Below, in pieces: positions 8,758-27,146 of a stretch of DNA of 33,161 bases (positions are counted from its first letter, which is position 1; every line of letters begins with the position of its first letter). The stretch spans positions 1 through 33,161 of the forward strand of contig CALFSX010000070.1 in the NCBI GenBank assembly GCA_937916515.1. Reading direction: 5' to 3'. A program made the position numbers and the translations under genes. Source of the stretch: an uncultured Planctomycetaceae bacterium (GTDB lineage Bacteria; Planctomycetota; Planctomycetia; Planctomycetales; Planctomycetaceae). The notes under the pieces were generated by a model. It saw only the letters and a program-made list of their open reading frames with translations. It was not told the origin of the DNA and did not search any database.

Positions 8758-8803
8758 ACGGCGAGGTTTGCTGGTTGACCAAAACTTGATCAATCTTGCT
8801 AAC

Positions 8804-8935
8804 AAGGGCTTCGCCCTTGACCCAGTGGCGTGGTTGGCTCAAAGACGTAGGACGTTCGAACCGCCAAACCGCTCCGTTGTCGCTACGAGCAACATGTGCG
8901 CACCGTGCGCACCGTGCGCACCGTGCGCATCTTTT
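8804..8935 (+). repeat. Dispersed repeat, copy A
   Basis: The first of three related elements in the window. It opens with a small perfect hairpin, aagggc-ttc-gccctt, and ends with GTGCGCACC units. Its first 24 bases are identical to copy C at 27030, and a later block (ccgctccgttgt.gct) is shared with it. It also shares cgctacgagcaa with copy B at 19323-19424. It lies between the permease stop and the mutarotase-like gene, and the open frames crossing it are products of the repeat and not genes. Confidence 0.85.
8896..8929 (+). repeat. Nine-base tandem repeat GTGCGCACC
   Basis: The unit GTGCGCACC is repeated 3.8 times without a mismatch. GTGCGCAC is itself a palindrome, so the array can form many alternative hairpins. 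Copy C has one full unit plus a partial one. Copy B has a 12-base inverted hairpin in the same place, so this end of the element is the variable one. Confidence 0.92.
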
Positions 8936-9021
8936 AAGTATCACTCTAATGCGGCGTGCGGTTGATGAGCTTCAGCGCCGGAAAACGCAAAAGATTACCT
9001 TCGAAATTGGAAATATTGAAC

Positions 9022-10014
9022 ATGACGGGAACTCGATCACTTTCGTATTGGCTTTCATTGGCGTTGATGCTTTCGGTGACGTCTTCAGCGTCCTGTGCAG
9101 AGATTGTGCAGTACCTTGGATATTCGCAGGCCGTTCAGCTGAAGAACGAAAACACGACGGTCGTGCTGTGTCCGGAAGTTGGTGGTCGAGTGCTTGAGTA
9201 TTCACTGAATGGAAAGAACGTATTGTTCATTTCCGATTCTGAAAAGAACTGGAAACCAGGCGACAGGCCGGAATCGTCAGCAGGACGATTTGACATCGGC
9301 CCGGAACTGGTGATTCCCAGACGCGACGTATCGTGGTCGGGGGCCTGGTCCACTGAGATTATTGGCGACCTGCATGTGAGGCTAACCAGTCAAAAAGACG
9401 AAGCCACCGGTGTTCAGCTCGTTCGCGATTTTGAACTCGATGCCAAAACGCCAAAACTGCTGTGTACGCAAACAATCGTCAACGTATCCAGCGAACTGAA
9501 GGAGTGGTGTCATTGGAGCCGCACGTTTGCAGTTGGTAAAGGTGTTTGCGTGATTCCGCTGACAGAAGCAGGCATTTCGCCAATCAGCCGTTTCCCAAAC
9601 AAGTATGTGCTGTATGAAGAAGGTGGGCTCATCAACATGAAACCCGAAGATCCTCAGGTCAGACGCCACAACAACACTCTGCAGATTTTCCCCACACCAC
9701 GAAAACCCAAGCTGGGCTTTGACAGCTATGCCGGCATCATCGGCTACGCTGCCCCCAATGATCTGTTCTTTTTGAAACGCTTCAAAACGCATCCCAATCG
9801 AATTTACAACGAAGCCGCTGGTCTGACAATTTCCGTTTGGTATCCCGATAACCAGATGATCGAACTGGAACCGATAGGGCCGCGAGAAACTCTGAAACCG
9901 GGAGAATCCGCCAGCTTCACGGAAGAATGGTGGCTGGCCCCGTTGGAGTTTCCAGGTACAGAAAAGGTCCTGGATTCAACGACGCTGGACCGGCTGATGG
10001 ACTCACTGAAGTAA
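9022..10014 (+). CDS. Secreted galactose-mutarotase-like protein
   Basis: Exported protein of 330 residues from the ATG at 9022. That start puts a clear signal peptide at the N-terminus (hydrophobic core about 8-20, likely cleavage near SCA at 24-26). The open frame reaches back to 8956, but those codons lack a signal and a ribosome site. The mature part begins with a beta-rich segment including PEVGGRVLEYSLNGKNVL (51-68), typical of the aldose-1-epimerase/carbohydrate-binding supersandwich fold. Later EFTEEWWLAPL-like residues resemble the end of such domains. The catalytic histidine-glutamate set of true mutarotases could not be placed with confidence, so it may be a sugar-binding protein. 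A weak GGAAA ribosome site precedes the start. Confidence 0.78.
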   Translation: MTGTRSLSYWLSLALMLSVTSSASCAEIVQYLGYSQAVQLKNENTTVVLCPEVGGRVLEYSLNGKNVLFISDSEKNWKPGDRPESSAGRFDIGPELVIPRRDVSWSGAWSTEIIGDLHVRLTSQKDEATGVQLVRDFELDAKTPKLLCTQTIVNVSSELKEWCHWSRTFAVGKGVCVIPLTEAGISPISRFPNKYVLYEEGGLINMKPEDPQVRRHNNTLQIFPTPRKPKLGFDSYAGIIGYAAPNDLFFLKRFKTHPNRIYNEAAGLTISVWYPDNQMIELEPIGPRETLKPGESASFTEEWWLAPLEFPGTEKVLDSTTLDRLMDSLK

Positions 10015-10039
10015 CCGACTGACAGTCAGGCATCGACGT

Positions 10040-10098
10040 GGCCGGTGGAAACGGGCCCTACGTTCGCCGCAGCACCGTAGGGCCGGCTCCCACCGGCC
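10040..10098. repeat. GC-rich inverted repeat, possible terminator
   Basis: Two 23-base arms (10040-10062 and 10076-10098) pair with mismatches only in the middle, around a 13-base loop. The outer ggccggtgg and inner gccctacg blocks are perfectly complementary. It starts 25 bases after the mutarotase-like stop and lies before the GntR promoter, so it may end transcription, but no T-run follows. The sequence looks like a repetitive planctomycete palindrome. Confidence 0.78.
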
Positions 10099-10147
10099 GC
10101 GTGTGCGGCATGGCTGGCAGGAACCGGCCCGGCACTTGAAATTTCAC

Positions 10148-10175
10148 TTGACAGCCTCGCCGCCTGTTGTATTAT
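10148..10175 (+). promoter_or_regulatory. Sigma-70-type promoter of the gntR-ABC operon
   Basis: A perfect -35 box TTGACA (10148-10153) is followed after 16 bases by TATTAT (10170-10175), one base from the -10 consensus. It lies 38 bases upstream of the GTG start of the regulator. This is the best promoter match seen in the window. Confidence 0.8.
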
Positions 10176-10188
10176 TGCATTAATACAA
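10167..10188. promoter_or_regulatory. Perfect dyad over the -10 box, likely GntR operator
   Basis: TTGTATTA (10167-10174) and TAATACAA (10181-10188) are perfect 8-base inverted repeats around a 6-base spacer. The dyad covers the -10 box and the probable transcription start. Dimeric GntR proteins bind such dyads, and YtrA-type members often repress their own operons, so autorepression is the likely meaning. Binding by this protein is inferred. Confidence 0.72.
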
Positions 10189-10213
10189 GAACGGCGTCTG
10201 GGAGGCTCGCGAG

Positions 10214-10621
10214 GTGCAGATTCGTATCAACACTCATGATGGCGTGCCGATTTATCTTCAGGTGGTGAATCAGATTAAGTATCTGGTAGCCGCAGGAAGG
10301 TTGTCGGGCGGTGATGAGCTGCCTGCGATCAGAACTCTGGCGGAAACGCTGATCGTAAATCCCAATACGATCGCTCGAGCGTATCGCGAATTGGAACATG
10401 CCGGTATTGTCGAAAAACGCCGCACGGCTGGTACCTTTGTGACAGATCAGGGATCCCCGCTGGCTCGCAAAGAACGCATGAAGATTCTGACGGAACGCGT
10501 TGATCAGCTGTTGGCTGAGTCTGAACAGATGAACGTGGGTCTGGAAGAAATCGTCAAGCTGCTGGGCCAACGCCATTCTGTGATCACGAAAGCGAAAAGA
10601 AAGGAAGGCTCTGATGACTGA
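10214..10621 (+). CDS. GntR-family regulator, YtrA type
   Basis: Transcription regulator of 135 residues. The GTG start has a GGGAGG ribosome site 8 bases upstream. Residues 10-70 form a GntR winged helix-turn-helix (IYLQVVNQIKYLVAAGRL, GDELPAIRTLAE, NPNTIARAYRELE, RRTAGTFV). The tail of about 50 residues is only a short helical segment, as in the YtrA subfamily, and has no effector-binding domain. YtrA-type regulators usually sit in front of ABC transporter genes and respond to cell-envelope stress or antibiotics. Here the next gene overlaps by 8 bases, so translation is coupled. The dyad over the promoter suggests it represses its own operon. Confidence 0.93.
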   Translation: MQIRINTHDGVPIYLQVVNQIKYLVAAGRLSGGDELPAIRTLAETLIVNPNTIARAYRELEHAGIVEKRRTAGTFVTDQGSPLARKERMKILTERVDQLLAESEQMNVGLEEIVKLLGQRHSVITKAKRKEGSDD

Positions 10622-11516
10622 CTCCTTTTCTGAATCAAGCACTCCCATTGTTGAAGTGCAGGGATTAACTCGACGATTCGACGACAAAGTGGCGCTTAAC
10701 GACCTTTCGCTTACCGTTCATCGAGGCGGCGTGTTTGGACTGATCGGGGGCAACGGAGCTGGAAAAACGACCTTAATTCGCCACATTTTGGGCATGTTTA
10801 AGGCTCAGTCCGGCAGCGTGAAAGTGTTCTCACTGGATCCAGTGAAAGATCCCGTTGGCGTGCTGGGGCGAATTGGCTATCTGTCAGAAGATCGTGATCT
10901 GCCTGACTGGATGCGAGTTCACCAACTGGTTCGCTACAGCCAGGCGTTCTATCCCAATTGGGATTCGGCTTATGCCAGCGAGCTGATGGATGCGTTTGAT
11001 CTCGACCCCAAAGCGAAGGTGAAGTCGCTTTCGCGCGGGCAGCGTGCCAGAGCTGGTTTGTTGGTTGCTCTGGCACATCGCCCGGAACTGTTGGTGCTGG
11101 ATGAACCGTCGTCCGGGCTTGATCCGGTGGTGCGGCGCGACATTCTGGGATCAATCATTCGCACGATCGCCGATGACGGTCGAACGGTTTTCTTTTCATC
11201 TCACCTTCTGGACGAAGTTGAACGAGTGGCGGATCGTGTGGCCATCATTCATCACGGCCAGATTATGCTGAATGCAGGCATGGATGACATTAAACAGTCT
11301 CATCGGCGTGTGACGTTTCGCTTTAACGAATCGACTTCCGAAGCACCGGCAATACACGGAACACTTTCCTGCGAAGGATCGGGCCAGGAATGGACGTACG
11401 TTTGCGACGGTCAGCTGGATCAATTTCGAAACGCAGGCCAGGCCATCGGCGCCGCTGTTGTTGACGAGGCGGCGTTAACTCTGGATGAAATCTTTGTCGC
11501 TCGCGTTTCCGGATAG
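10614..11516 (+). CDS. ABC transporter ATP-binding protein
   Basis: Cytoplasmic ATPase subunit of 300 residues. Walker A is GGNGAGKT (45-52), the signature is LSRGQ (139-143), Walker B is LLVLDE (159-164) with SSGLDP after it, and the H-loop histidine is H197 in SSHLLDE. The expected Q-loop position reads YLSEDRDL, without glutamine, as in several YtrB-like ATPases. The last 90 residues form a small C-terminal domain. Its start overlaps the stop of the GntR gene, and the permease follows 33 bases later, so the three genes form one operon. It likely energises that permease, for export or for envelope stress defence; the substrate is not shown. Confidence 0.95.
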   Translation: MTDSFSESSTPIVEVQGLTRRFDDKVALNDLSLTVHRGGVFGLIGGNGAGKTTLIRHILGMFKAQSGSVKVFSLDPVKDPVGVLGRIGYLSEDRDLPDWMRVHQLVRYSQAFYPNWDSAYASELMDAFDLDPKAKVKSLSRGQRARAGLLVALAHRPELLVLDEPSSGLDPVVRRDILGSIIRTIADDGRTVFFSSHLLDEVERVADRVAIIHHGQIMLNAGMDDIKQSHRRVTFRFNESTSEAPAIHGTLSCEGSGQEWTYVCDGQLDQFRNAGQAIGAAVVDEAALTLDEIFVARVSG

Positions 11517-11549
11517 TCGTCCACGCTTCTGCACTGCGGAGAACACATT

Positions 11550-13199
11550 ATGCACAGGATTCCTCTGGCATTGCTGTGGGAAATGAGCGTCAAGGGGCGT
11601 TGGCCATTGCCCGGCTTTTTTCTGCTCGGCAACCTCATGCCGATGTTTATCTATACGGCACTTTCGCAGCTTGCCGTTGATTATGATGATCCTGCATTGC
11701 TGAACATGCACATCATATTTTTGCCGTTGGTGATGTTTCAGTGCGCGATCGGAATCGTTGCCGCACAAGGAACTCTCTCCCGACTTTATGCGACCCCGAT
11801 ATCAACAAGCATGTTGGTTGCATGGCACGGAATGTCAGGCGGCTTGCTGCTGGCAATGGAAATCGCCGTTGCTTTGTGGTTACAGAACCTATTATTCGGC
11901 TTTAGCTATCCCATCGCCGGCCCATCGTTGTTTGCCGCGACTGCCTGGATGGCCGCTCAACCACTTGTCTGCACTTCGCATAGAACGATTTCCAGTTTTT
12001 GTGTGATTGCTTCGCCATCTGTGTTGCTGTTTTTGTGGTTGCATTCTCGGTACGGAAGCTGGTTCGCCCAGCCGACTCACTACTGGTCGCCCGTGTCGAT
12101 CGCAGACGCCTGCACCTTGCTGGCAGTGGCAACAGTATTCCATTTCGTAACAGTGACCGTCGTTAAAAGAGATCGTTGCGGCGAACGAATGCCGTCGCTG
12201 AACGGATGGAAATGGCTGGTTCAAAAATGGGAAGCTCGCGGTCGATCTGCATTGATTCCCGATCGGCCGTTTGCTTCACTGGAGGAAGCTCAACGATGGT
12301 ACGAATGGCAACCCAAAGGAATCGCATTTCCGGTGATCGTGCTGTTGGCCGTATCTGCGGGCGTTGTGGCGACCGTAGCGAGAATCGTTGCATTGGGAGA
12401 CGCTGAGACAAATCTTCGCGATTTGCACGAAGGGCTACTGGGTGGTGGCGGCATTCTGTCGATCATTGCTGGAATCGCCGGATTGCTTGTGGGAAGCACG
12501 GCAACTGGCAAGACGCAACGTCATCGCGAAGTCACTATTCGAGATCTCGCGGACCAGACGGAGTTCGAAAGAATGGGCGATTTCCTGGCAACGCGCCCCT
12601 TTGATAATGCGACGTTCGCTCACGCGATTCTAAGCACTGCTGCCAGAAGCACGATCATTGCCTGGGGCTTTTGGGCGACTGTTTTAGCGGCGGTATTTGT
12701 CGCTCGCCTGTTTGCAGGAGGCGCATGGGAGCCGATTCTGCCTGCGGAAGTGAGATATTGGTACCTACCACTGACGCTGTTGGGAGCATGGGTTGTGATG
12801 ACCAATATTTCAACCGTCACTATGACAGGTCGTGGTTCTAAGTTTATTTTTACTGGTGTCATCAGTGGTGTAGCGCTGTTGGTGGTTTCTTCGATTGCTC
12901 GAAGCGGCGCTTCGCAGGCAACGGAAGCCCTGGTCGTTCCATTTCTATGGTCGATTTCCGTGTTAGTCGTTGCCGGGACTGTCTGGGCATTCAAAATCGC
13001 TACGGAACGAAACATGGTGACCATGTCTTTGTTGATGAAACTGACTTTCGCAGCAGTGCTGGTTACCGCTGTTGCCGTGGCGCTAAAGCCGGCTGACATG
13101 CACAACGTGGGCTACATGCTGATTGTGGCCTTTGCTTCGCTGACGATTCTGCCCTTTGCCACAGCACCGCTGGGGATCGCATGGAATCGACATCGATGA
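11550..13199 (+). CDS. Multi-pass membrane permease of the gntR-ABC operon
   Basis: Integral membrane protein of 549 residues with about fourteen hydrophobic segments: six in the first 205 residues and eight from 257 onward. A soluble stretch of about 50 residues (206-256, including ASLEEAQRWYEWQPKG) separates the halves. The two-part architecture suggests a duplicated or fused ABC-2-type permease, so one protein could provide the whole membrane channel. A CGGAG ribosome site lies 8 bases before the ATG. It is the third gene of the operon and the only membrane partner for the ATPase. I do not recognise a named family; the role is inferred from position and topology. Confidence 0.85.
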   Translation: MHRIPLALLWEMSVKGRWPLPGFFLLGNLMPMFIYTALSQLAVDYDDPALLNMHIIFLPLVMFQCAIGIVAAQGTLSRLYATPISTSMLVAWHGMSGGLLLAMEIAVALWLQNLLFGFSYPIAGPSLFAATAWMAAQPLVCTSHRTISSFCVIASPSVLLFLWLHSRYGSWFAQPTHYWSPVSIADACTLLAVATVFHFVTVTVVKRDRCGERMPSLNGWKWLVQKWEARGRSALIPDRPFASLEEAQRWYEWQPKGIAFPVIVLLAVSAGVVATVARIVALGDAETNLRDLHEGLLGGGGILSIIAGIAGLLVGSTATGKTQRHREVTIRDLADQTEFERMGDFLATRPFDNATFAHAILSTAARSTIIAWGFWATVLAAVFVARLFAGGAWEPILPAEVRYWYLPLTLLGAWVVMTNISTVTMTGRGSKFIFTGVISGVALLVVSSIARSGASQATEALVVPFLWSISVLVVAGTVWAFKIATERNMVTMSLLMKLTFAAVLVTAVAVALKPADMHNVGYMLIVAFASLTILPFATAPLGIAWNRHR

Positions 13200-13345
13200 G
13201 TTTTAACTCCGGGGCTGCCGCGTATTACGCTGACTTGTGGCCGCGAATCACGCTTTTCGGCCTGCGGTGCATGTTTATCGCGAGCCAGAACCGTCTGCAT
13301 CTTTTAGCAAGTTGCTCTACAGCTTCGTCACCGCTCAATCATGGA

Positions 13346-13401
13346 GTAGTAGACCGTGTTAAAGATCCTCCGACACTGGGATCTTTAACAAGATCCACTA
13401 C
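13346..13401. repeat. Inverted repeat between converging genes
   Basis: Two 23-base arms (13346-13368 and 13379-13401) match at 20 positions as inverted repeats. The inner 12 bases, TGTTAAAGATCC and its complement, are perfect, around a 10-base loop. The element lies in the 315-base gap (13200-13514) between the permease stop and the hydrolase stop, which face each other; the rest of the gap shows nothing recognisable. It may be a bidirectional terminator or a dispersed palindrome. Open frames crossing it are not genes. Confidence 0.8.
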
Positions 13402-13514
13402 CAGAAATACCGGGGTAGATTTGAGCCGTGTACAAGACATTACGAATTTCCCGTAGCGGTTAACTCGCCCCGCGATTGATGCGGAATGGCACGGCAGATC
13501 TTTGCCGCAAAGAA

Positions 13515-14303
13515 TTAATCCTGTGGCGACGTGCCTTTGGCCAGTTCGTCGTCCCATTCGTCCAGGAGTGGCCAGTCCAGGGCACACGTGCCGAAGTCGG
13601 CCATGTGCTGGTAGCCTTCCAGTCGTTCAATGGTTGCCTGCAGCAGCTTGTGGTCGTTGCGGAAGGCGGGACCATGACTGGGCAGCAGCCAATCGACGTC
13701 GCTGCCTTGAATTCGTTTCAGTGATTCGATGAAGGCAGGAATATCTGAACCGTGGTGAGCGTCAATGCCGCCGACGCAGCCGTCGCGAAAAATATTGTCG
13801 CCTGACAGAAGCAGGTTTCCGAAACGAAGTGAGATCTGTCCGGTGGCATGTCCGGGAGTATCCCAGACTTCCAGGTGGGTGTCCCCAAGTTCCAGTTTGT
13901 CGCCCTCAGAAATCGTCTTCTGAATATCGAAGATGGGCATGTTGATCGAAATCTGCTGAGCCGGAATTTCTGCATAAGCGGCAATGCGATCGCCGTCTTC
14001 CAGAATCTTTTTTGCGTCCGGGTGAGCGACCGTTACGGCTGCCGGCAGCAGTTCAGAAGCTCGTTTCAGGCCTTGCACATGATCGGCATCGGCGTGAGAT
14101 GCAATCAGATAGCGACAGTTAGCCAGCGGGAAATCCATATCGCGAATCAGGTCGATAATTTCATCAACCGTGTCTTCGTATCCAATGTCCATCAACGCCC
14201 AATCAGTTCCCGAATGAACCAGATACACGCAGCATCCAAAACGTCGGCGTGCCTGATGGTTCATTTCAATAACGTTGGGAAACAATTCTCGACGGGCAAG
14301 CAT
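13515..14303 (-). CDS. Metallo-beta-lactamase-fold hydrolase, variant metal site
   Basis: Cytoplasmic hydrolase of 262 residues. The fold is shown by DIGYED (39-44), the metal motif at 69-75, TPGHATGQ with H152, LLSGDNIF with D169, and LPSHGP with H210. The main motif reads S-H-A-D-A-D-H. The second histidine of the usual HxHxDH is replaced by aspartate (D72), while H70, D74 and H75 remain. This should change metal binding at the first site but keeps most of the second. The family includes glyoxalase II, lactonases and sulfur dioxygenases; substrate cannot be told. The ATG at the right end is the natural start. Transcribed in the same direction as the CopD-like gene upstream, 129 bases away. 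Confidence 0.9.
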
Positions 14304-14432
14304 AGTTCAGGCCGAAACTAAGAAAGGTCAGCAGACGAAAACACAAAAGATGGGTGGCAGAAGTCTAGAAGGCGTTCGATTGGCAGGCAATAAACAACAC
14401 CCGCCAATCACGATTCGCTGAATCGCAGCTGA

Positions 14433-14924
14433 CTACTCTGCAGTGGGTTCTGCAGTGGCGTCAACGACAGGAACGTCACCAGAACTCGGTATGCCACGCA
14501 CTTTCGCGAATCCCGAAATTCCAACAATCAAAGCAGAGACAAGCAGCATGATGCCGGTCCACTTTTTCGCATCGTCGCGGAACTTCTGAGTTCCCGGCTT
14601 GTTGCCGACCAGGACCGACGCCAGGAAAAAGACAAACAATGCCAGCAGAATTTTTGTGCCAATCAGCCCATGATAAAGCCCGTCGCCTTTGTGCAGCGGC
14701 ATGGCTTTGATGTAGTTGTAGAATCCGCTGATCAGAAACAGAGCGATGCCACCGTGTACGAATTTTTTCCAGCGTTGGCGAATTTTGCCCAGCAGTTCTG
14801 AGTTCTCGCCTTCCAACGCTGGAATAACGGCCAAACGCAGAAAAGCGGTTCCACCAACCAGCACAATGGCTGTACCGACGTGAGCCCAGCGAGAAATCAG
14901 CGGCAGAATGAGTTCCGAATCCAT
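14433..14924 (-). CDS. Small CopD-like four-helix membrane protein
   Basis: Integral membrane protein of 163 residues from the ATG whose complement lies at 14922-14924. Four helices are predicted (about 15-36, 54-73, 86-106, 121-140), and the tail is proline- and acid-rich. Histidines H15, H57 and H85 sit at or near helix ends, an arrangement compatible with heme or copper binding as in CopD-related proteins; this is inference. The open frame extends upstream to 15146 but those 74 codons are arginine-rich and have no membrane segment or ribosome site, so I reject them. The chosen ATG has no strong ribosome site either. Could also be an uncharacterised DUF2269-like protein. Confidence 0.7.
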   Translation of the reverse strand: MDSELILPLISRWAHVGTAIVLVGGTAFLRLAVIPALEGENSELLGKIRQRWKKFVHGGIALFLISGFYNYIKAMPLHKGDGLYHGLIGTKILLALFVFFLASVLVGNKPGTQKFRDDAKKWTGIMLLVSALIVGISGFAKVRGIPSSGDVPVVDATAEPTAE

Positions 14925-15453
14925 GTGGTCGAGTTTCGTTTGATAATTGAGGACAGGCTTGAGCCCGTGAAGTTTAACTGTCCGTTTATAGCCAGGGACT
15001 CCGAAAAGGCGATTCCTTCGCCAATTCCTTGCCTCGGGGGAACGTTTTTCAATCTGCGAGACAAAATGGCCAGTGTGGGGTGACTGTGAGAATTGCCTCA
15101 GCCGTAGATCCGCGTCAAAAATTCGGGCCCTCAGTGATGACCCCAATCATCAACCGTGGCCGGAAAAATAGCGACTCGCCCTCCATCCTTTCTAAACCTG
15201 TTTCGAAAAATGCCCGTTGTGCCAGCGATTTCCAGACAACTCTTTACGCGACCTCAAGTGAGACAGTTGCTCTCAGAACATTCCTTAGATTAGCTCGATT
15301 GGATTAAACTAAGATCCAACTGCAAGATTTGTGATTCTTGCCGCGTAAGCTTCCAGCTTGCGAAAGACGTCGCAGGGAACATGACAAACAGAATGCTTAT
15401 CGGATTTGTTCGCTGATCAAAACCACTGTCGCCGAAATCGAAGATTATCAAGC
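14925..15453. other. Divergent intergenic region with one small hairpin
   Basis: This 529-base gap separates the CopD-like gene (-) from the unrecognised ORF at 15454 (+). It holds a small hairpin at 15344-15362 (separate entry). Plus-strand open frames here are short and lack ribosome sites. No other signal was seen. Confidence 0.4.
15344..15362. repeat. Short hairpin, cgtaagct-tcc-agcttgcg
   Basis: The 8-base arms match at 7 positions around a 3-base loop. I recall near-identical AAGCTTCCAGCTT-type hairpins as common intergenic repeats in planctomycete genomes, but only one copy was noticed here. Confidence 0.5.
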
Positions 15454-16170
15454 ATGATTCAGGCACTCAGGCAATTTGAAATCAGGCGACTCGTATTTCA
15501 GTATGCGGTTACCTCTGGTTTGCGGGCTGTCTTGAATCGGCGGCAACATCGGTTGATTGACCAAACTTTGATTCAGAGTCTGCGATTGCCATCGGGAGAT
15601 TTCGATGCTGACACATCAAAGGGGCTTGCGAAGTTGAGGTTTTGGCATAGAAAGCCGAACGCAGCAGCTGTCTGCTCAGACGACAAAAACGATCTCGCGT
15701 GGCAATGGGGATTTCTGACCGCGCGGTTGGTAGATCCTCCGGTGTCCCGTGCCGACTATCAGCGAGTTTGTCGAACCAGCCACTTTGGCGACGCTCACTT
15801 TGAGGCCGCATTTCGCTATCGACAGAGCGAATGCCGAGTCTTTGCGATCAAGAATACTGCTCGAGATTATTGCGGCTGGGTGAATCGTTTGTCGCTGTCC
15901 GAAAAACTGAGCTTTGGCAGTCGACGTGCCGAAGCGGTTGAGCTTTTCAAAATCTTCGCCGCAGAACTGGGGCAACACTTTTCATACGTTTCGCTTGAGC
16001 ATCCATCAGTCTGCGTTGAACTGGCTGTGCAACCAGGATTACTGGCGGGCAACGCACCACTTCGTCTCGAAAGCTTCCGGCAGCAGTACGAACAGCTTCA
16101 CTTCGATTTGCACAGGGCAGAACAAAGTGAGAAGCAACAGCATATCTGTGCCATAAATCTGCAAGAGTAA
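15454..16170 (+). CDS. Unrecognised protein, 238 residues
   Basis: I do not recognise this protein. The open frame extends upstream to a TTG at 15406; the ATG at 15454 gives 238 residues. Codon use looks natural (many GAA, GCC, GAT and CTG codons) and the frame is long for chance at this base composition. The product is arginine-rich, with no signal peptide or membrane helix. The stretch at about 135-175 (CGWVNRLSLSEK and following) is the most protein-like part. There is no clear ribosome site, and a partial open frame exists on the opposite strand in the same codon phase, so it could be a shadow of a decayed minus-strand gene. No partner gene is adjacent in the same direction. Confidence 0.45.
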   Translation: MIQALRQFEIRRLVFQYAVTSGLRAVLNRRQHRLIDQTLIQSLRLPSGDFDADTSKGLAKLRFWHRKPNAAAVCSDDKNDLAWQWGFLTARLVDPPVSRADYQRVCRTSHFGDAHFEAAFRYRQSECRVFAIKNTARDYCGWVNRLSLSEKLSFGSRRAEAVELFKIFAAELGQHFSYVSLEHPSVCVELAVQPGLLAGNAPLRLESFRQQYEQLHFDLHRAEQSEKQQHICAINLQE

Positions 16171-18923: not shown

Positions 18924-19322
18924 TGCAGGATGCTTAACGAGTTACAGAAAGTGCGTTGCACGTTATTAGACGGTTATTCAGTAACGCTGTTCCAGCACGA
19001 AAGTCACAACCATGAGATCGCTGGACCAACCCATTATTTGAATTCCTGTTTTGCTAGCGATCGTTGCCACACTGGCCATACTCGGCAGGTTCCAGTCGCG
19101 AGGCGTTACGTGTGTGATGCTGGTTGGCGTTGCCACGATATTCGTGCCGGCTCCCGTTCATCTGCTCGCCGCAAGTGTATGCCCCGGATTGCTCGACGCC
19201 CGGTATCGCGTTTACCACGCCTTCTACAACAATATCGAGGTCGGCATGACGCGCGAACAAATTCCTGAACAGATGAACAACCAGGATTCAACAGGCTGCC
19301 CAGCAAGTTACGGATAATCTTG

Positions 19323-19349
19323 AATGATGCGCACAAGGTGCGCATCATT
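19323..19349. repeat. Perfect 12-base hairpin at end of copy B
   Basis: aatgatgcgcac (19323-19334) and gtgcgcatcatt (19338-19349) are perfect inverted repeats around a 3-base loop. It takes the place of the GTGCGCACC tandem units of copy A. Confidence 0.9.
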
Positions 19350-19424
19350 GCTCGTAGCGGCTCGGGATTGGAACTTCCCACGTCTTTCCGCTTGCCACGC
19401 CAGTGGCGCAAGAGCGAAGCCATT
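19323..19424 (-). repeat. Dispersed repeat, copy B (inverted)
   Basis: Read on the minus strand it begins aatggcttcgctctt, like the opening hairpin of copies A and C but with mismatches, and contains cgctacgagcaa as copy A does. It lacks about 11 bases (around tccgttgtcgc) present in copy A. It interrupts the broken gene at 19012-19662. The seven bases TTACGGA occur at 19308-19314 and again at 19423-19429, which could be a target duplication. Confidence 0.8.
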
Positions 19425-19645
19425 ACGGAGACTGCCCGAGCACAGTTTGCGCTACAGTCCCATCGGAAATGGTTTTCTGGAAGTCAGGTATCTGGAAATA
19501 ACAAGACCAGCTGTATTTGCGCCACGTACGGTCTGTATTTATTTTCTGGATGGAGGCGTCTCACAGTTGCTGGCCGAAACCGAATTGAAGAACGACGGTA
19601 AGAATCCCGGTGAGCATAACGTCAGGTTTGTCGCACCATTCGTAT

Positions 19646-20158
19646 TCACTTGCTCGAAGTGAGAGTGAAGTCGAATGTGTTTTCGCCAGCCTTCACGTCT
19701 GCTTCCAGTTCTGTTTGTGTGTTGTATCGAGAAGGAATCTGACCATCCTTTGGTTTGGTCGATTTTTGGGGGGACGGTTCCTGCACAAGATCATCGCCTT
19801 CCAGAAGCGGCTCGACGCCTAATTCTTCTGCAAACTGATCGATCGTTTCTTCGGTGTTGCCGATTTGCACGCGACAATGCCCGACCTTACATCCGAGCGT
19901 ATCTCGAATGTACGTAAGTTGGTAATGGCCATCTGAATCAGTCTTGCCCATGGCTGGCCGACCGTCGTCGGGGACAAATGAGACAGCAATGCCGGACAAC
20001 GGAGTACCGTCAAGTGTAACGGTGCCAGACACAAGTCCAAGTTCCGGCTCGTCTGTGCCGCCGCTGCAACCGATGGTGCCTGTTAGAAATGCTGCAACGG
20101 CAGTCACAAGAAGTTTGTTAATGATTTGTGTGCTGGTAAATGCTGTTGTGCGAGCCAT
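19646..20158 (-). CDS. Carboxypeptidase-regulatory-like exported protein
   Basis: Short exported protein of 170 residues from the ATG whose complement is at 20156-20158. A hydrophobic segment (15-29) is followed by a cysteine, C31, in the context TIGCSGG. This resembles a lipoprotein signal although the -3 residue is threonine, so lipidation is likely but not certain. The mature part, VSGTVTLDGTPLSGIAVSFVPDDG (44-67) then GKTDSDGHYQLTY, is a beta-sandwich of the carboxypeptidase regulatory-like type common in planctomycetes. Upstream in-frame ATGs at 20239 and 20191 would add residues without a signal. It follows the DUF1559 gene on the same strand, a pairing seen often in planctomycetes, and probably forms an operon with it. 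Confidence 0.85.
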   Translation of the reverse strand: MARTTAFTSTQIINKLLVTAVAAFLTGTIGCSGGTDEPELGLVSGTVTLDGTPLSGIAVSFVPDDGRPAMGKTDSDGHYQLTYIRDTLGCKVGHCRVQIGNTEETIDQFAEELGVEPLLEGDDLVQEPSPQKSTKPKDGQIPSRYNTQTELEADVKAGENTFDFTLTSSK

Positions 20159-20269
20159 TGAAGGTTGAATCTCCAGAGCAGATTTCGTCATGAAAAATTT
20201 GAAGACCGCCGCAACCTGTATTCGGCTGCGGCGGAGCATAAGAAACGAAAGCAGACACGCTGCTAAGCA

Positions 20270-21235
20270 TTAAAATTCGCCAATCACTTCGCCACCGGCT
20301 CGAGTGCTGATGCCCTGATAGATGGACATACTGATGTTCTCTGAAATGAACCTCACGCTGCCGTCACCCAGCGCAAACTGAGCACCACCCACATGGAAGC
20401 TGCCAGCCGCTTCTTCGGTGTACTGGTTAATGGGGTCATTGCTTTCGGCCGCAATCAGGTATTCAGACATTTCTGTTGGTGGATTGCTGTCTGCACCGCC
20501 GGAAAAGCAGTGTTTGCGATCGCTTCCGCCACCACCCAGCCTGCCTGCGTCTCCGCCTGAGTCGATCACTTCACTCACAAAGATTGTGTTGCTAAGACCG
20601 TCAGTAACGTCTCGAAATTTAACGCTGCTGCTGATGAAGAAGATTCCGTTTGCATTCATGCATCCACCGGGTGCTCGCATGCCGGCTGCAGTTGTGACGC
20701 TTCCGCCGTAGCAGTTGTCGCCGCTGTATCCGATCAACGTTCCCATGTTGCCGTTGTAGTTTGACGGAGAATAGCCGCCCTTTTGTACTCCCTGAGTAAC
20801 GTCGGGCTGCGATGGACACCAGAATACCGACATGACAGTCTTGCCGGCCAGCATCTGTTTGGGGCTGGTTGTGCCGCCCAGTTCCGCTCCAAGACCACCA
20901 TCGTTGGGGCCTTGAATCTGCTCGTACATGTTCGCCTGATCCATATAAGGAAGAATGCTGGCGTGCCACGTCCAGCCATGTCCATAGTACGTTGTTCCGG
21001 CAGCGTTAAGCAGAACAATGCTGCCCGAAGGTAGTGAGTTGCTGGTGTCGTGATAGTTGTGCAAAGCCAGCCCAATCTGCTTCAGGTTGTTTTTACATTG
21101 TGTACGTCGAGCAGCTTCGCGGGCCTGCTGGACGGCAGGAAGCAATAGCGCAATGAGAATAGCGATGATGGCAATGACCACCAACAGTTCAATCAAAGTG
21201 AAACCACGGGTCCGTTGAATGGGTCGTACAGGCAT
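20270..21235 (-). CDS. DUF1559 protein with pilin-like N-terminus
   Basis: Protein of 321 residues. The N-terminus [17 protein letters not shown] is a type IV pilin/type II pseudopilin cleavage and methylation motif, so a prepilin peptidase should cut after the glycine and the helix should assemble in a filament or the membrane. The DUF1559 (SBP_bac_10-like) domain follows, ending in [21 protein letters not shown] and the terminal GGEVIGEF. These features are diagnostic of the large planctomycete family, whose function is unknown but probably extracellular or surface-related. AGGAAAA precedes the ATG as ribosome site. Its first 43 residues from GFTL are identical to those of the second DUF1559 protein at 32046. 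Confidence 0.95.
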
Positions 21236-21865
21236 TGAATTTTTCCTAAAAAGTGCTGAGTCACTGCAGGCAATTGAGCGATCGCTCGGAATTTCGTCCG
21301 GATGCGAACACCATGCTCGAATCCGTCCAGTGACCTCTCAAATTTATGTTTTGGCTGAAAAGTTTTGGCTGACACTCGCCGCGACGCGGACGTATCCAGT
21401 AAATCGCCGTTGAGCATCGACAGCTGTCATAGAAGACGTTCGTTTCAAAAACTTATGGTGTCTTCACAGACGCTCTGTGTTCTGTCGCGGTAGTGTCGAA
21501 GCAGGTGTTAAGTTCCGGTTAGCATTTGAGGAGATTTTCAGGTGCCTCAAAACGGTCGCATGTTGAGAAGACTTAACCAACCTGAGATCAGTCGTTTGCA
21601 ACTGTTCGTGCACGGAAAGCAGCAACAATCATCATTGCGAATGAACCGGTTGCGGGTGAATTGACAGCTGTTCGGCAGTTTCTTTTCCAACAGACGAAAT
21701 CTGGCCACGCTCCGGAAACTTAAATCACGCCTGTACGTTTACCGAGCCTTTGTCACTTTCACGCAAAGCGTGCCGTGGCTACGATCATCGTTGAAACGTT
21801 GACAAGAAGCCTGCTCAGGCTGTTCAGACTGTTGCCAGCCTCAAAAAAGACCACGGAGTTGTCCG
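21236..21865. other. Divergent intergenic region, possible tiny ORF
   Basis: A 630-base gap between the divergent DUF1559 and sulfatase genes. A possible 40-codon frame runs from the GTG at 21542 to the stop at 21662-21664, preceded by a good GAGGAG ribosome site with 8-base spacing; the product is arginine- and glutamine-rich and not recognised. Otherwise no RNA gene, repeat or clear promoter was seen. Confidence 0.35.
21542..21664 (+). CDS. Possible 40-residue small protein
   Basis: Short frame starting with GTG behind GAGGAG at 21528-21533 (8-base spacer). The product is basic and glutamine-rich (for example MLRRLNQPEISRLQ) with no membrane segment and no recognised family. Only the ribosome site supports it, so it may be chance. 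Confidence 0.2.
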   Translation: MPQNGRMLRRLNQPEISRLQLFVHGKQQQSSLRMNRLRVN

Positions 21866-23485
21866 GTGAAAAAACGATGCATGCGATTGGTTGGAGTGTT
21901 GTTACTGTTCGTACTACGATTGGAAAACAACGGCTCGATTGTGTTTGCGAACGATGTGACAGACGCAAAGTCACCGACAAACGTGCTGCTGATTCTGGCA
22001 GACGATCTCGGTTATTCGGATCTTGCCTGCTACGGAAGCGAAATTGAAACGCCCAACCTTGATTCATTGGCAGCCAATGGGTTGAGATTCACTCAGTTCT
22101 ATAACACGGCCCGATGCTGGCCAACTCGAGCCGTGTTGATGACCGGTTATTACGCTCAACAGGTCGGCCGCGATGCACTGCCGACCAAGCGTGGCGGCGG
22201 AGGCGGCAACCGCAACCCGCGACCGGAATGGGCTCGGCTGCTGCCCGACATGCTGCGGCCGGCCGGTTATCGATCGTATCATTCCGGCAAGTGGCATATC
22301 GATGGCATGCCTCTGGAAGGTGGTTTCGACAAGTCCTATTACATTGGCGACCAGGGACGATTCTTCAATCCAACCAGGCACTGGAAAGATGACCAGCCGC
22401 TGCCGAAGGTCAAAAAGAATTCCGGTTACTATGGAACAACGGCCATCGCTGACCATGCCGTCGAATGCCTGAAAGATCATCAGCAGAATCATTCTGACAA
22501 GCCGTTCTTTCATTATCTTGCATTTACAGCTCCCCACTTCCCACTTCAGGCGTTGCCACAGGATATCGAAAAATATAAGCAACGATATCTCAACGGATGG
22601 GCGCAACTGCGAGCTGAACGCTGGAACAAACAGCTGCAACTGGGATTGCTGTCGGGCCAGCTCTCGGCCGTGGAAACAGAACTGGGGCCACCCTATGACT
22701 TTCCTGAACATCTTAAGATTCTGGGCGACGTGGAAGTGAACCGCCCGGTTGACTGGAGTTCACTGAACGGGAAGCAGATCCTGTTTCAGGCTGAAAAGAT
22801 GGCGATCCATGCGGCCATGATCGATCGCATGGATGTGGAAATCGGCAAAGTGTTGCAGCAGCTTCGCGATATGCAGCAGTTTGACAATACGCTGATTCTG
22901 TTTCTGTCCGACAACGGTGCGAGTGCTGAAATTATGGTTCGTGACGACGGGCATGATCCTGCTGCGAGTCCTGGGTCTGCAGAATCTTACTTGTGCCTTG
23001 GGCCGGGTTGGTCGAACGCCTGTAACACTCCGTTTCGCCGGCACAAGACATGGGTTCATGAAGGCGGTATCTCGACTCCTTTGATTGCTCACTGGCCAAA
23101 CGGAATTTCGGCGAAGGGTGAACTGCGTCGCAGTGCTGGTCACGTGATTGATGTTGTTCCCACTATACTGGAAGTGTGTGGAGCAACTCCGTTCAGCGAA
23201 TGGAAGGGAACGCCGGTGCCGGAAGCTCCTGGAAAAAGTCTGCTGGCGGAATTCGCCAAAGAGGGCAGCTTGGCGCACGACTATTTGTGGTGGTTTCATG
23301 ATGGCCACAAGGCGGTTCGCATGGGCAACTGGAAACTGGTTGCGGCGAAGGGGGAACCCTGGGAACTTTATGACGTCCGAATTGATCGAGCTGAACAGAT
23401 CGATCGGGCTGAAGAATGGCCGCAGATCGTTGAACAGCTGGAAAAACGCTGGAACGCGGCCGCCGAAGAATTCAGCAAGTTGTAA
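21866..23485 (+). CDS. Secreted sulfatase (formylglycine type)
   Basis: Exported sulfatase of 539 residues. A signal segment covers about 7-28. The signature CWPTR (84-88) is a CxPxR site, so C84 should be converted to the catalytic formylglycine by a sulfatase-modifying enzyme, which is not in this window. Metal ligands are visible as D46 and D47 in ADDLGYSD, and D349 N350 in LSDNGAS. K142 and H144 (SGKWH), H224 (TAPHFP) and K394 are likely sulfate-binding residues. The C-terminal subdomain with WWFHDGHKAVRMGNWKL and WELYDVRIDRAEQ is typical of arylsulfatases. A GGAG ribosome site lies 7 bases before the GTG start. It likely removes sulfate from sulfated polysaccharides, as many planctomycete sulfatases are thought to do; the substrate is unknown. 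Confidence 0.93.
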   Translation: MKKRCMRLVGVLLLFVLRLENNGSIVFANDVTDAKSPTNVLLILADDLGYSDLACYGSEIETPNLDSLAANGLRFTQFYNTARCWPTRAVLMTGYYAQQVGRDALPTKRGGGGGNRNPRPEWARLLPDMLRPAGYRSYHSGKWHIDGMPLEGGFDKSYYIGDQGRFFNPTRHWKDDQPLPKVKKNSGYYGTTAIADHAVECLKDHQQNHSDKPFFHYLAFTAPHFPLQALPQDIEKYKQRYLNGWAQLRAERWNKQLQLGLLSGQLSAVETELGPPYDFPEHLKILGDVEVNRPVDWSSLNGKQILFQAEKMAIHAAMIDRMDVEIGKVLQQLRDMQQFDNTLILFLSDNGASAEIMVRDDGHDPAASPGSAESYLCLGPGWSNACNTPFRRHKTWVHEGGISTPLIAHWPNGISAKGELRRSAGHVIDVVPTILEVCGATPFSEWKGTPVPEAPGKSLLAEFAKEGSLAHDYLWWFHDGHKAVRMGNWKLVAAKGEPWELYDVRIDRAEQIDRAEEWPQIVEQLEKRWNAAAEEFSKL

Positions 23486-23797
23486 AGCCGCAAGGTGAAG
23501 TCAGTATGTATTCACAAGAGCGACTTCTCGTTTCTGTTATGTGAATGCTTGCTGTTTTCAGTTTTCCAGGTGTTTTTCCGCCGGGATTACCACATTCCGG
23601 AGTCCTTCTATTCATACTTTTTGATGCATGGCAAATTGACGCGTAACGCCTAGAATTGCAGCATGATGCTCGTCTTTCAGGTGGGTTCCGCTTATCGCGG
23701 GCGTTTTGTAACGTCAATCATGGCTCTCGGAGCAATTTTCTGCTGCCGTCAGAGCATTTGTTAATTTTTTGGACCACGATAACAGGAGTTTACCAGA
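23486..23797. other. Intergenic region upstream of sodA
   Basis: A 312-base gap between the sulfatase stop and sodA. No terminator was seen after the sulfatase. The sodA promoter should lie here but no convincing box pair was identified. The gap contains only short random-looking frames. Confidence 0.4.
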
Positions 23798-24409
23798 GTG
23801 GCTTACTCACTTCCCGAACTACCATATGCCTATGACGCCCTTGAGCCTCATTTTGATGCCAAGACGATGGAAATCCATCATACGAAGCATCATCAGGCAT
23901 ACATCAACAACGTCAACGCTGCTCTTGAAGGCACCGAATACGCAGACACCTGCATCATCGAACTGATGAAAAAACTAAGCAGCCTGCCCGCCGACAAGCA
24001 GGGTCCTGTTCGCAACAACGGCGGCGGACACGCAAACCACTCTTTGTTCTGGACGATCCTGTCACCATCCGGTGGTGGCGAACCAACAGGCGAACTGGCT
24101 GATGCAATCAATGCCGCCTGTGGCAGCTTTGCTGAATTCAAAGATGCCTTTTCCAAGGCCGCCGCAACTCGATTCGGCAGCGGCTGGGCGTGGTTGTCAG
24201 TTAACGCTGACGGCACTTTGATTGTTGAAAGCACGGCTAACCAGGACACTCCGCTGTCTGACGGCCGAACTCCAATTCTTGGCCTGGACGTGTGGGAACA
24301 CGCTTACTACCTGCACTACCAGAATCGTCGACCAGACTACGTTTCCGCGTTCTGGAACCTTGTTAACTGGAACGAAGTAGCCTCGCGATTTGCTGCAGCC
24401 AAAGGCTAA
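23798..24409 (+). CDS. sodA: Superoxide dismutase, Mn type
   Basis: Cytoplasmic superoxide dismutase of 203 residues, full length. It converts superoxide to oxygen and hydrogen peroxide. Metal ligands are H27 (in MEIHHTKHH), H81 (in [11 protein letters not shown]), D164 and H168 (in LDVWEHAYY). [11 protein letters not shown] and the glutamine in STANQDTPL are typical of manganese enzymes; iron or either metal cannot be excluded. An AGGAG ribosome site lies 9 bases before the GTG start. It has its own terminator downstream, so it appears to be a single-gene unit. Confidence 0.96.
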
Positions 24410-24425
24410 GCAAACCTGATTACTT

Positions 24426-24460
24426 AAACCACTGGCAGAATCTCTGTCAGTGGTTTTTCT
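24426..24460 (+). terminator. Intrinsic terminator of sodA
   Basis: AAACCACTG (24426-24434) pairs with CAGTGGTTT (24448-24456), extended by three more pairs including one wobble, and is followed directly by a T-rich run. It starts 17 bases after the sodA stop. Confidence 0.88.
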
Positions 24461-24569
24461 ATTTCCACACCTCAAAATTGACCAAAGCCTGCAACTGTAG
24501 CGATCAACGACTCGCAGCGGCGACGTCGTGATTTGCTATCATTAGCCAGGCAATTGAAGACCGAACAGA

Positions 24570-25997
24570 ATGGCGAAGGATTTTCTAAAGGACGCCAAAG
24601 ACGAATATGACGTCGTCGTTATTGGCAGCGGTTTGGGCGGACTGACTTCGGCCAATATTCTCGCTCGCCAGGGCTATTCTGTTTTGTTGCTGGAACATCA
24701 TTACCAGCTTGGTGGCATGGCCACATGGTTCAAACGCAGAGGCGGCCATATCTTTGATATCTCGCTGCACGGCTTTCCTCACGGCATGATCAAAAGCTGC
24801 CGGAAATACTGGACGAAGGACATTGCCGATTCCATCGTCCAGCTGAAGGGCGTCCGGTTTGAGAATCCTCAGTTCTCTTTGCGAACCACGTTCGATCGCC
24901 AGGACTTTACTCGCATTTTGCAGGAAACATTTTCGGTTCCCAAAGAAACGGTGGATGCGTTCTTCGACAAAGCTCGAAGCATGAACTTCTTCGACGAACA
25001 GGAAAAAACGGTTGGCGAACTATTCGAAGAATTCTTTCCTGGTCGAGGCGACGTGGTGCGCCTGCTGATGGAACCGATCACGTACGCGAATGGTTCGACT
25101 TTGGAAGATCCGGCGATTACCTACGGAATCGTTTTTTCAAACTTCATGCAGAAGGGCGTGTATACGTTCGAGGGTGGCACCGATGCTCTTGTGGGCAAGA
25201 TGAAGGACGAGCTGATTCGCAATGGAGTTGATCTGCGGATCAGAACGCTGGTTGAAAAGATTGAAGTGACAGACGACCGCAAGGTTCAGGCCGTGGTGGT
25301 GAACGGTCGGCGCATCAAGTGCAGAGCGGTTGTGTCCAACGCGAATCTGAAATCCACCATTCTAAACATGGTGGGCGAAGAGCATTTTGACAAATCGTAC
25401 ATTGAAGAAACCAACGCAGTTCGATTGAACAGCAGCAGCTGTCAGGTTTACATGGCGCTTAAGCCCGGTGAAGGCTTCGACGAAAGTTGCGGCGACCTGC
25501 TATTTCATTCAGAACACAATGGATTCGACATCGACGCCATTCTTAGCATGGACGTCAGCAGCCGAACATTCAGCTTCTACTATCCCAATACGCGGCCTGG
25601 CAGTGATCGCTGGATGATCGTGTCTTCAACGAATGCCAATTACCGCGACTGGGCCGATCTGTCAGAAGAAGACTATCAGGCCGCGAAAAAACATCTGGAA
25701 GAAACGACACTGGATTGTCTGGAAAAATACGTGCCAGACATTCGTTCAAAGCTGGATTACATCGAAGCGGCCACGCCAAAAACATTCGAACGTTATACTC
25801 GCCACATCGCTGGTTCATCGTTTGGCACAAAGTTTGAAGGCCTGCAGGTCAGCAAAGATCTGCCAACTCAAATCAACGGTCTGTATCACGCAGGTTCCGT
25901 CGGCATCATTATGTCCGGCTGGCTGGGAGCGGTAAATTACGGAGTGATCGTCAGCAACGACGTCGACAAATACCTGACGCAGCCAGAAGTGAACTAA
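24570..25997 (+). CDS. FAD oxidoreductase, phytoene desaturase/RetSat superfamily
   Basis: Flavoprotein of 475 residues. The N-terminal dinucleotide-binding motif is [14 protein letters not shown] (15-28), followed by [16 protein letters not shown], the second conserved FAD segment. The C-terminal FAD motif [22 protein letters not shown] is intact. The layout matches the carotenoid-type desaturase/isomerase and retinol saturase group (CrtI, CrtISO, RetSat), which add or remove hydrogens on polyene lipids. No phytoene synthase or other isoprenoid gene is adjacent, so the substrate is unknown. The ATG at 24570 is the natural start; the ribosome site is weak. It is not clearly in an operon with sodA because a terminator lies between. 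Confidence 0.88.
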
Positions 25998-26362
25998 TGC
26001 AGGAAGCGGCCATTGCAATTGGCGCGATAAGGCTTCGCGGGATTGTTGCTTTGATGAACGTGCAACGTAGCCGTGATTGCTGACATTGCAATGCATGCAA
26101 TTTGCGGCACGAAGTATCACGGGGATGGTTGAAATGCTTGATGCGTGTTCCCGCTACGCCACATCACGACGGAGCGTGACGGCTACTCTGGCCGGCTCTT
26201 TAGTGATATCTGATTGAACGGGGCGCTTTTGCTTGCCTCGTTTCCAGGCTGTGTTTGGAAACGCCTGCGAACAGGGATGGCGGCTTGTTGGCTCGCGTCG
26301 GTTTGATTGCGCGATTAAGATTCACGGGCTTCGTATTCGTCGATCAGAAATCAAATACTTCA
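25998..26362. other. Intergenic region with a small hairpin
   Basis: A 365-base gap before the sigma factor. It contains a small hairpin, tcacg-acggag-cgtga, at 26164-26179, whose surroundings (gacggagcgtgacggctac) resemble a repeat I recall from other planctomycetes. The open frame running into the sigma factor from the TTG at 26255 is not used as its start. No promoter was firmly placed. Confidence 0.4.
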
Positions 26363-26923
26363 ATGACCGATGTGACCATTATCCTGAAAGAGATCGCGTC
26401 GGGGGCAGCTCGAACGGAAGATCTGCTTCCGCTGGTGTACAGTGAATTGCGCCGATTGGCCGGTGCAAAATTGCAGCACGAACCGGCAGGAATCACGCTG
26501 CAGGCCACGGCTTTGGTTCACGAAGCGTTTCTGCGTTTGGTGGGTGACGAAAACGCGACTTGGGAAAATCGGCGTCACTTTATGGGAGCAGCTGCGATTG
26601 CCATGCAGCGGATTCTGGTTGAGCAGGCTCGGCAGCGTCAGCAACTGAAGCGAGGCGGTGGGCGACAGCAGGTTGAATTGATGGACGTGGCCATCGAAGT
26701 TAACAGTCAGACTTCCGACGCGGACCTGTTAGCCCTTAACGACGCTCTTGACGAATTCCAGGTTCAGGAACCTGCGAAAGCCGAATTAGTCCGGCTGCGA
26801 TATTTTGCAGGGCTTAGCGAAGAAGAAGCCGCAGAAGTATTGAATATTTCTCGAGCAACCGCGTCACGCTGGAGGACGTTCGCCAAGGCATGGCTGTATC
26901 AGCGGATTCAGGGTGCGGATTAA
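26363..26923 (+). CDS. ECF-type RNA polymerase sigma factor
   Basis: Alternative sigma factor of 186 residues from the ATG at 26363; an upstream in-frame TTG at 26255 would add 36 residues with no homology to the family. Region 2 covers about 20-90 (LLPLVYSELRRLA, ALVHEAFLRLV, WENRRHFMGAAAIAMQRILVEQ) and region 4 about 125-180, with a helix-turn-helix near LSEEEAAEVLNISRATASRW (151-170). The wording matches the planctomycete ECF group (sigma70_ECF). Such sigma factors are commonly encoded directly upstream of a membrane Ser/Thr kinase and may be controlled by it. Here the kinase gene follows on the same strand after 259 bases containing repeat copy C. Confidence 0.92.
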   Translation: MTDVTIILKEIASGAARTEDLLPLVYSELRRLAGAKLQHEPAGITLQATALVHEAFLRLVGDENATWENRRHFMGAAAIAMQRILVEQARQRQQLKRGGGRQQVELMDVAIEVNSQTSDADLLALNDALDEFQVQEPAKAELVRLRYFAGLSEEEAAEVLNISRATASRWRTFAKAWLYQRIQGAD

Positions 26924-27029
26924 CGACCGAATCGCAGTCGATCGTGAGGGAAAAACGGATTTGGAATATTCTTTGAGTTTTCCATGAGGCGCTTCGAACG
27001 CGGATCTCGCATGGTCTTGAGAGCCTAAT

Positions 27030-27146
27030 AAGGGCTTCGCCCTTGACCCAGTGACGTGGCATGCGGAAAAAAGTGGGGCGTTCAAACCGCCGAGCCGCTC
27101 CGTTGTTGCTCTGAAAAAAGGCGTGCGCACCGTGCGCGCATCTTTT
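27030..27146 (+). repeat. Dispersed repeat, copy C
   Basis: The first 24 bases are identical to copy A, including the aagggc-ttc-gccctt hairpin, and the ccgctccgttgt block is shared. It ends with one GTGCGCACC unit plus a partial one and gcatctttt. It lies between the sigma factor and the kinase and ends 36 bases before the kinase ATG, so it is probably within the kinase leader RNA. Confidence 0.85.

Follow-up and report, generated by a model that had tools for sequence, protein, structure and literature searches.

A short hairpin-bearing element found in many copies directly behind stop codons and similar tetranucleotides in a planctomycete genome

Three groups of described repeats come closest to the subject of this report. 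The palindrome-associated transposable elements (PATEs) of Haloquadratum walsbyi, in the sections of PMC3119063 that describe them, lack inverted terminal repeats, carry palindromes near their ends, make no target duplication, are too short to encode a transposase, follow a short targeting sequence on the 5' side, and occur in many copies including shortened forms. Repetitive extragenic palindromic (REP) sequences, with their paired forms (REPINs), bacterial interspersed mosaic elements (BIMEs) and REP-associated tyrosine transposases (RAYTs), are footed hairpins of high copy number that build mosaics (PMC3733652, PMC6006769 and PMC8266576, in the parts on their anatomy). Miniature inverted-repeat transposable elements (MITEs), as defined in PMC3119063, are short, non-coding, numerous and presumably moved in trans. 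All these features are shared by the element reported here, a gene-less sequence of about 132 bp that forms a genome-wide family in an uncultured Planctomycetaceae bacterium (GCA_937916515.1). Three members lie in a stretch of 33,161 nucleotides, contig CALFSX010000070.1, which was analysed as a whole and is called the window below (contig C70 of the source genome). The element appears to work most like PATEs, and it shows their descriptive features except for the ends shared with a transposon: PATEs share their palindromes with IS605-type transposons (as far as PMC3119063 describes them), and no such partner was found for the element in the Y1 loci scanned. The main new point is the site of insertion, which for about a quarter of the copies is exactly behind the stop codon of a gene, leaving that gene intact; the account of PATEs in PMC3119063 makes no mention of stop codons as insertion sites.

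How abundant is the element? The initial annotation of the window had expected many copies in the genome, and they are there: in the 8.33 Mb of the source genome (343 contigs), a head pattern of 19 nt, up to 3 mismatches being allowed, has 264 + 272 matches, 536 in all, against 1 + 4, or 5, for the reversed control, and a 20-nt tail pattern gives 108 + 114 against 0 + 1. Counts of edges and open reading frames (ORFs) refer to 1.56 Mb of the 8.33 Mb, in contigs picked as long and known to contain matches. In these 1,559,689 bases a profile based on 43 copies has 123 hits, 63 and 60 by strand: 75 are full, 37 head-only, 8 tail-only (two of them at ends of retrieved stretches) and 3 middle pieces. 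The full copies diverge from the consensus by 3.7% to 37.5%, with a median of 14.7%, and therefore the spread overall is not very recent.

A copy follows host (C)CTAA, starts with C-AAGGGCTTCGCCCTT, which forms a hairpin, and closes with a second hairpin plus CATTTTGAGTAAGACTCTAA; the consensus tail hairpin is ATGCGCGCACCGTGCGCGCAT. With the left tetranucleotide excluded and the right one included, the modal length is 132 (31 of the 75 full copies). Profiles were drawn over 109 left edges and 83 right ones: the bases outside are random, those inside are conserved, and the transition is sharp at both ends, which are asymmetric. The left edge reads C.61, C.80, T.73, A.83, A.82, then C.89, A.95 (n=109). 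The right edge is ...GTAAGACTCTAA, with CTAA kept in 41 of 83. Slightly more than half of the copies have CTAA as their foot tetranucleotide, and the remainder have other bases or host stop codons. There are no terminal inverted repeats: the consensus ends CAAGGGC... and ...GACTCTAA are non-complementary, and none was found at the edges in a scan of the window. Nor is there any sign of target duplication, since the left tetranucleotide differs from CTAA in 29 of 74 two-edged copies and the right one is identical to it in only one of these 29, being CTAA in 11; a duplication of CTAA was dropped as an explanation. MITEs have inverted ends and usually a target duplication (in the definition of PMC3119063), and with neither found in the element this assignment was dropped as well. 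The base after the right CTAA is variable (C 22, A 21, T 15 and G 7 in the 65 copies without a following unit), so the target would be chosen by its 5' side only.

Where does the element insert? Its insertion point is immediately 3' of a (C)CTAA-like tetranucleotide. Wherever a comparison was possible this tetranucleotide belongs to the host, and it often serves as the stop codon of the gene upstream. Distances were counted between the left edge and the stop of an open frame on the same strand that spans 120 codons or more. At 28 of 109 left edges the distance is zero, the stop being TAA in 19, TAG in 7 and TGA in 2; any other distance that occurs is found for one or two edges, and 35 of the 109 lack a frame of this kind within 400 bases. 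The head match at C214:6098, one of the 28, is weak. Since a stop borne by the element would always be TAA, the occurrence of TAG and TGA indicates that the stop was not brought by the element. A converging frame has its stop within the right CTAA at 4 of the 82 right edges, as expected if target and right end carry the same word.

Comparison with congeners covered five of the 28 stop-codon sites, on three stretches selected for holding several copies, together with one copy of the window (copy 3, below). The element is absent from the congeners at all five, and the stop is at the same place at four of them, so that the stop codon is host DNA. At C215:31903 the source genome reads TTTATTCCATAG|CAAGGG, while G007 reads TTTATTCCATAG with the ATG of the next gene 2 bases on, and G002, G004 and G006 likewise have the stop and then the next gene (4 of 4 readable orthologs; the gene end is unreadable in L202). 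All 6 orthologs at C91:22356 end in TAA or TAG, and all 6 at C91:25373 keep the stop; the gene at the latter site, judged from its sequence, is presumably that of elongation factor Ts. At C214:69232 the stop is present in 5 of 5 readable orthologs, L265 being unreadable at the gene end. At C214:73035, the fifth site, the species differ in their gene ends, so that the place can be given only approximately, and L267 is mismatched there. A further locus on this contig, C214:70757, is not a stop-codon site.

Is the preference for stops larger than the supply of targets would give? In the 1.56 Mb, with element edges excluded, CTAAC occurs 38 times at stops, 234 times outside long ORFs and 560 times inside them. 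Left edges with CTAAC stand at stops in 16 of 54 cases, against 38 of 272 harmless background sites (14.0%; one-sided p 0.0022). The excess beyond target availability is thus modest, about twofold, and selection could account for it. Nine left edges are CCAAC, which contains no stop at that place, and therefore the enzyme would recognise sequence rather than codons. For 6 of 19 elements from other species, the edge is preceded by at least 120 codons and an in-frame stop; in G012, a genome of another genus, 11 of 13 edges show CCTAA, and one of these ends a frame of at least 120 codons.

The copies so far described by a single consensus belong to a family of related head and tail modules, partly shuffled, which is present in congeners and in one other genus. 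Besides this type A there is a type B unit, which starts with C-GAGGCTGTGCCTC and continues with the hairpin TGAGCTGACGCTCA, CGCTCCGTTGTCGCT, CTTGACTCAACGTGAACAAG and TTTAAGAAGTCTAA. Its start has 18 matches, of which 17 follow type A at a shared CTAA and the remaining one is a chance match in a gene; most type B loci were retrieved via type A, so lone B units may have been missed. A heads with B tails exist (e.g. L003, L047, L085), a type C head (GCGGGAGGCCCGC) is joined to an A tail both in G005 and in the source genome, and contig C62 carries head units of 88 bp in tandem. B- or C-type elements occur in all four congeners inspected (G001, G004, G005, G007), so an older modular family of the genus was probably the origin of the type A burst in the source genome. 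Some other arrangements were also seen. Inverted pairs of heads, rare among the copies, face each other in a REPIN-like way at C62:26466-26561 and L072:16-175; and at C91:58413-58756 a type A head breaks into another palindromic repeat (TCGCGGAGCGACGTCATTTGTC...), which likewise follows the head-only copy C91 minus 27544.

The type A consensus has palindromes near both ends. Its head and tail fold better than shuffled sequences (z -5.8 and -4.3), as does the whole consensus folded as single-stranded DNA (z -3.77), and the head hairpin varies in sequence from type to type (AAGGGC/GCCCTT, GAGGC/GCCTC, GCGGG/CCCGC) with its pairing retained. Within type A, by comparison of 112 heads, each of the six pairs is broken in 5 to 15 copies, with 2 paired changes overall. 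The copies thus decay without paired changes, and because of this it seems unlikely that the individual copies have a conserved function as RNA. RNAalifold found no structure in a global alignment of 23 representatives, because the head types fail to align column by column. A structured RNA known to Rfam was dropped as a candidate, as the window has no match at gathering score and one match at chance level (E 0.9, at copy 1).

How, then, might the element move? On balance we lean, by a narrow preference, towards a mobile element that is non-autonomous, measures about 132 bp, belongs to a modular family of the genus and is moved in trans by an HUH-type single-strand transposase. The description in the initial annotation as a small, structured, non-autonomous mobile element agrees with the copy number, the sharp edges and the empty sites in congeners; the single-strand mechanism is suggested by the anatomy, namely the short target on the 5' side only, the absence of duplication and of inverted ends, the hairpins, and a right end equal to the target. 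Under this reading the element would move as single-stranded DNA by means of an enzyme (Y1 or a relative) that would read the terminal hairpins, choose the site by 4-5 nt of the form YTRR on the 5' side only, and cut behind YTRR. An identical CTAA would be left at the target and at the right end, and the stop codon of the host would be preserved. Insertion behind stops would then follow from the target sequence, together with selection against elements that land within genes. If this is true, the family is a clear natural case of an element that reaches hundreds of copies with little damage, its target being often a stop codon. It also alters the 3' ends of genes, by hairpins and a terminator-like tail, in one species and not at the same sites of its congeners, so that effects on transcript ends can be tested directly.

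Several observations weigh against this mechanism. One is the search for the enzyme. The source genome has 6 Y1 matches, of which five (L071-L074, L076) lie among different palindromes of their own, such as CCACCGGCTTCAGCCGGTGG and GCCGCAGGGCGTTAGCCCCGG, and the sixth, L075, is cut by a contig end. Beside these six, A, B or C motifs are absent except for one 15-base match in L072, where a worn inverted pair of A-like heads stands about 1.4 kb upstream. Ten further Y1 loci come from G005 and G012, and a Y1 frame was located in 4 of them; among the ten, L326 shows one B-tail-like word as well as a weak A-like stretch (E 2.6e-4) close to its far end, L327 has one hit (E 0.044), and the others show nothing. 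No Y1 gene is bracketed by head and tail at any of the 16 loci in these three draft genomes, several loci being shortened by contig ends and the G005 and G012 loci being scanned for element ends over their available length. These loci thus give no support to the link with a REP-associated or IS200-like transposase that the initial annotation envisaged. Neither was a transposon sharing the element's ends found in the 16 Y1 loci, a search that did not take in TnpB-only elements. Inspection by eye of the alignment of 23 representatives showed no conserved guide tetranucleotide 5' of the tail hairpin. The hairpins are uneven: 12 of 23 representative heads exceed 95% of shuffles, the others being worn or short; 8 of 9 A-type tails do so but only 1 of 11 B-type tails; and the fold of copy 3 in the window (z -0.85) is matched by 38 of 200 shuffles. 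The head hairpin begins about 1 nt from the left edge, whereas PATEs have a longer 5' spacing, so that the spacing from palindrome to end is the reverse of theirs (as PMC3119063 describes it). A strict two-ended mechanism does not predict that 37 of 123 hits are head-only and that 18 of these 37 end at model position 85-95. Finally, GC skew is positive for 46 of 120 elements (p 0.013) and, among the 83 whose skew exceeds 0.03, for 30 (p 0.015), a weak bias and the opposite of what is predicted for insertion of the element strand into the lagging-strand template.

Some of these points fit better with one-ended, rolling-circle-like movement of the IS91 or Helitron type, which we hold to be a tentative alternative, clearly less probable than the two-ended single-strand movement. 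Seen on the other strand, the hairpin head would be the origin end, set against host TTAG, and the far end would be any stop signal, so giving tails A, B, A+B or none. The surplus of tailless heads, 37 of 123 hits head-only against 8 tail-only, with about half of them ending close together, leaves room for such a variant; the tails are exchangeable among head types; and the bias in skew fits activity of the other strand. On the other hand, about half of the tails (41 of 83) retain the right-end CTAA. The Y2_Tnp domain (PF04986) has 0 matches in the source genome, which says little because 14 control genomes are equally silent. A REP or REPIN system served by a genomic Y1 (RAYT) protein is unlikely in our judgement, for all that the element shows a tetranucleotide-footed hairpin, high copy number and a genome with 6 Y1 matches, and that PMC6006769 describes, mainly from Planctomycetes, Acidobacteria and Proteobacteria, a class-3 Y1 group whose foot is CnGA and which reaches about 600 copies in one host. 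REP sequences measure 20-65 nt, against about 132 bp with several hairpins here, and their feet are fixed (GTAG, CGTC or CnGA) and belong to the repeat (in the accounts of PMC3733652, PMC6006769 and PMC8266576), whereas the foot of the element is host CTAA, TAG or TGA, lying outside the repeat at the compared sites. For this reason the element is, strictly speaking, no REP, and this side of the initial annotation's reading is not borne out. RAYT genes are flanked by REP sequences, and none was found beside the element in the 16 Y1 loci; the readable Y1 genes of the genome keep company with other palindromes; and only 2 of the 9 pairs closer than 500 bases are inverted.

Two further explanations concern quite different machinery. 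The element could have spread through RNA, a structured transcript being reverse transcribed with its head end anchored. The better preservation of one end and the insertion at gene ends would suit this, yet both edges are sharp and the far ends fall in few classes, and we regard it as improbable. More remote still are integron-like cassettes. Integron cassettes recombine at sites of consensus GTTRRRY / RYYYAAC, and the left edge of the element, CCTAAC and mostly YYTAAC, resembles one half of this, with tandem or composite units joined at one CTAAC as if they shared the site. The consensus far end has no GTTRRRY partner, the base after the right CTAA is C in just 22 of 65 copies, and the cassette (attC) explanation was dropped because its defining partner site is missing there; we give it hardly any weight. 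Beyond the known types one may speculate that the family is a distinct class of bacterial mobile element, of no known insertion-sequence ancestry, whose enzyme would target stop-codon-like YTRR and park hairpin modules behind genes, so that host 3' ends would serve as reusable landing sites for swaps of heads and tails. This seems to us rather doubtful, and well short of the HUH-type movement in trans in its probability.

How far does the family extend? At E <=0.001 a DNA match was found in 6 of 39 genomes, the source included; among the 22 candidates scored per genome, G012 has at least 22, G005 has 10, and G004, G011 and G013 have 1 each. Tail matches occur in 18 of 150 genomes of the family, with 222 in the source genome, 7 in G005 and at most 2 elsewhere. 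A shorter head pattern matches 59 of 397 genomes of the class (a set that does not contain G012), with 428 in the source genome and at most 3 in any other, its reversed control reaching 9 in one class genome. The G012 variant of the pattern, run against named GTDB genomes in a scan that may omit records of the source genome, returned 12 stretches, all in the metagenome-assembled genome Planctomycetaceae bacterium HKST-UBA52; 10 of the 12 matches lie within 150 bases of the end of a stretch and all 7 on whole contigs lie near a contig end, as expected because a repeat breaks assemblies. A blastn search with copy 1 against plasmids and phages gave no match, two scans of viral contigs gave 0, and searches of the open-access literature brought up no description of such an element.

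In the window itself, the three copies reported by the initial annotation are borne out by their sequence and lie far beyond chance: GTGCGCACNGTGCGC, with up to 2 mismatches, has 8 matches in the window, both strands together, against a mean of 0.66 and a maximum of 4 in 100 shuffles. Their GTGCGCA ends differ as it had said, and all are variants of one tail hairpin, intact, worn, or slipped into 9-bp units. It had also placed the copies correctly but drawn them too short. Copy 1, given as 8804-8935, extends from 8803 to 8949 on the plus strand (147 bp, ending ...ATCACTCTAA), with both edges read and the left one set by the profile; the target-side CTAA is at 8799-8802, as the sequence and the left-edge profile of 109 copies agree. 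Its head hairpin, CAAGGGC-TTC-GCCCTTG, is predicted by folding at 8803-8819, and its tail hairpin has slipped to 3.8 tandem units of GTGCGCACC at 8896-8929, which also yield terminator-like pattern matches. Copy 2 is inverted and lies at 19308-19425 on the minus strand, found by a profile hit without the full tail. Both of its edges are worn: the tail edge at 19308 is approximate, and the left edge, at 19425, reads CTCCG and not CTAA. Its tail hairpin at 19323-19349 (minus) is a perfect 12-bp stem by sequence and fold, AATGATGCGCAC-CTT-GTGCGCATCATT. Folded as single-stranded DNA, copies 1 and 2 (z -4.30 and -3.70) are each better than all 200 shuffles.

Copy 3, formerly given as 27030-27146, starts at 27029 by the profile and ends at 27159 or 27160 by comparison with congeners (131 or 132 bp, plus strand), behind a CTAA at 27025-27028 (plus); its tail is a single hairpin, GTGCGCACCGTGCGCGCA, at 27123-27140 (plus) by sequence and fold. 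It shares 83% identity with copy 1 across 86 nt. The copy is absent from the congeners G004 and G007, in both of which the gap between conserved words is 28 nt, compared with 159 nt here; therefore 131 bases were added, as 132 would leave 27 and a 4-base duplication would leave 31. By Pfam matches it stands between a gene for an extracytoplasmic function (ECF) sigma factor and a gene for a Ser/Thr protein kinase (PF00069, E 3.3e-51), which occupies 27183-30521 on the plus strand. The start of the kinase gene at 27183, 3' of the copy, follows from the alignment of congeners, and a longer ORF starting at 27159 is disfavoured.

Two other features of the window are separate from the element. Positions 21047-21208, within the ORF 20270-21235 (minus), have matches of about 80% at many places in all seven congeners. 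The protein of this ORF belongs to DUF1559 and has an N-terminal methylation motif, so the matches probably reflect a large paralog family sharing its start and not a DNA repeat. Inverted repeats at 31847-31919 and 3514-3592 have arms of 24 nt (96% complementary) and 33 nt (85%), respectively.

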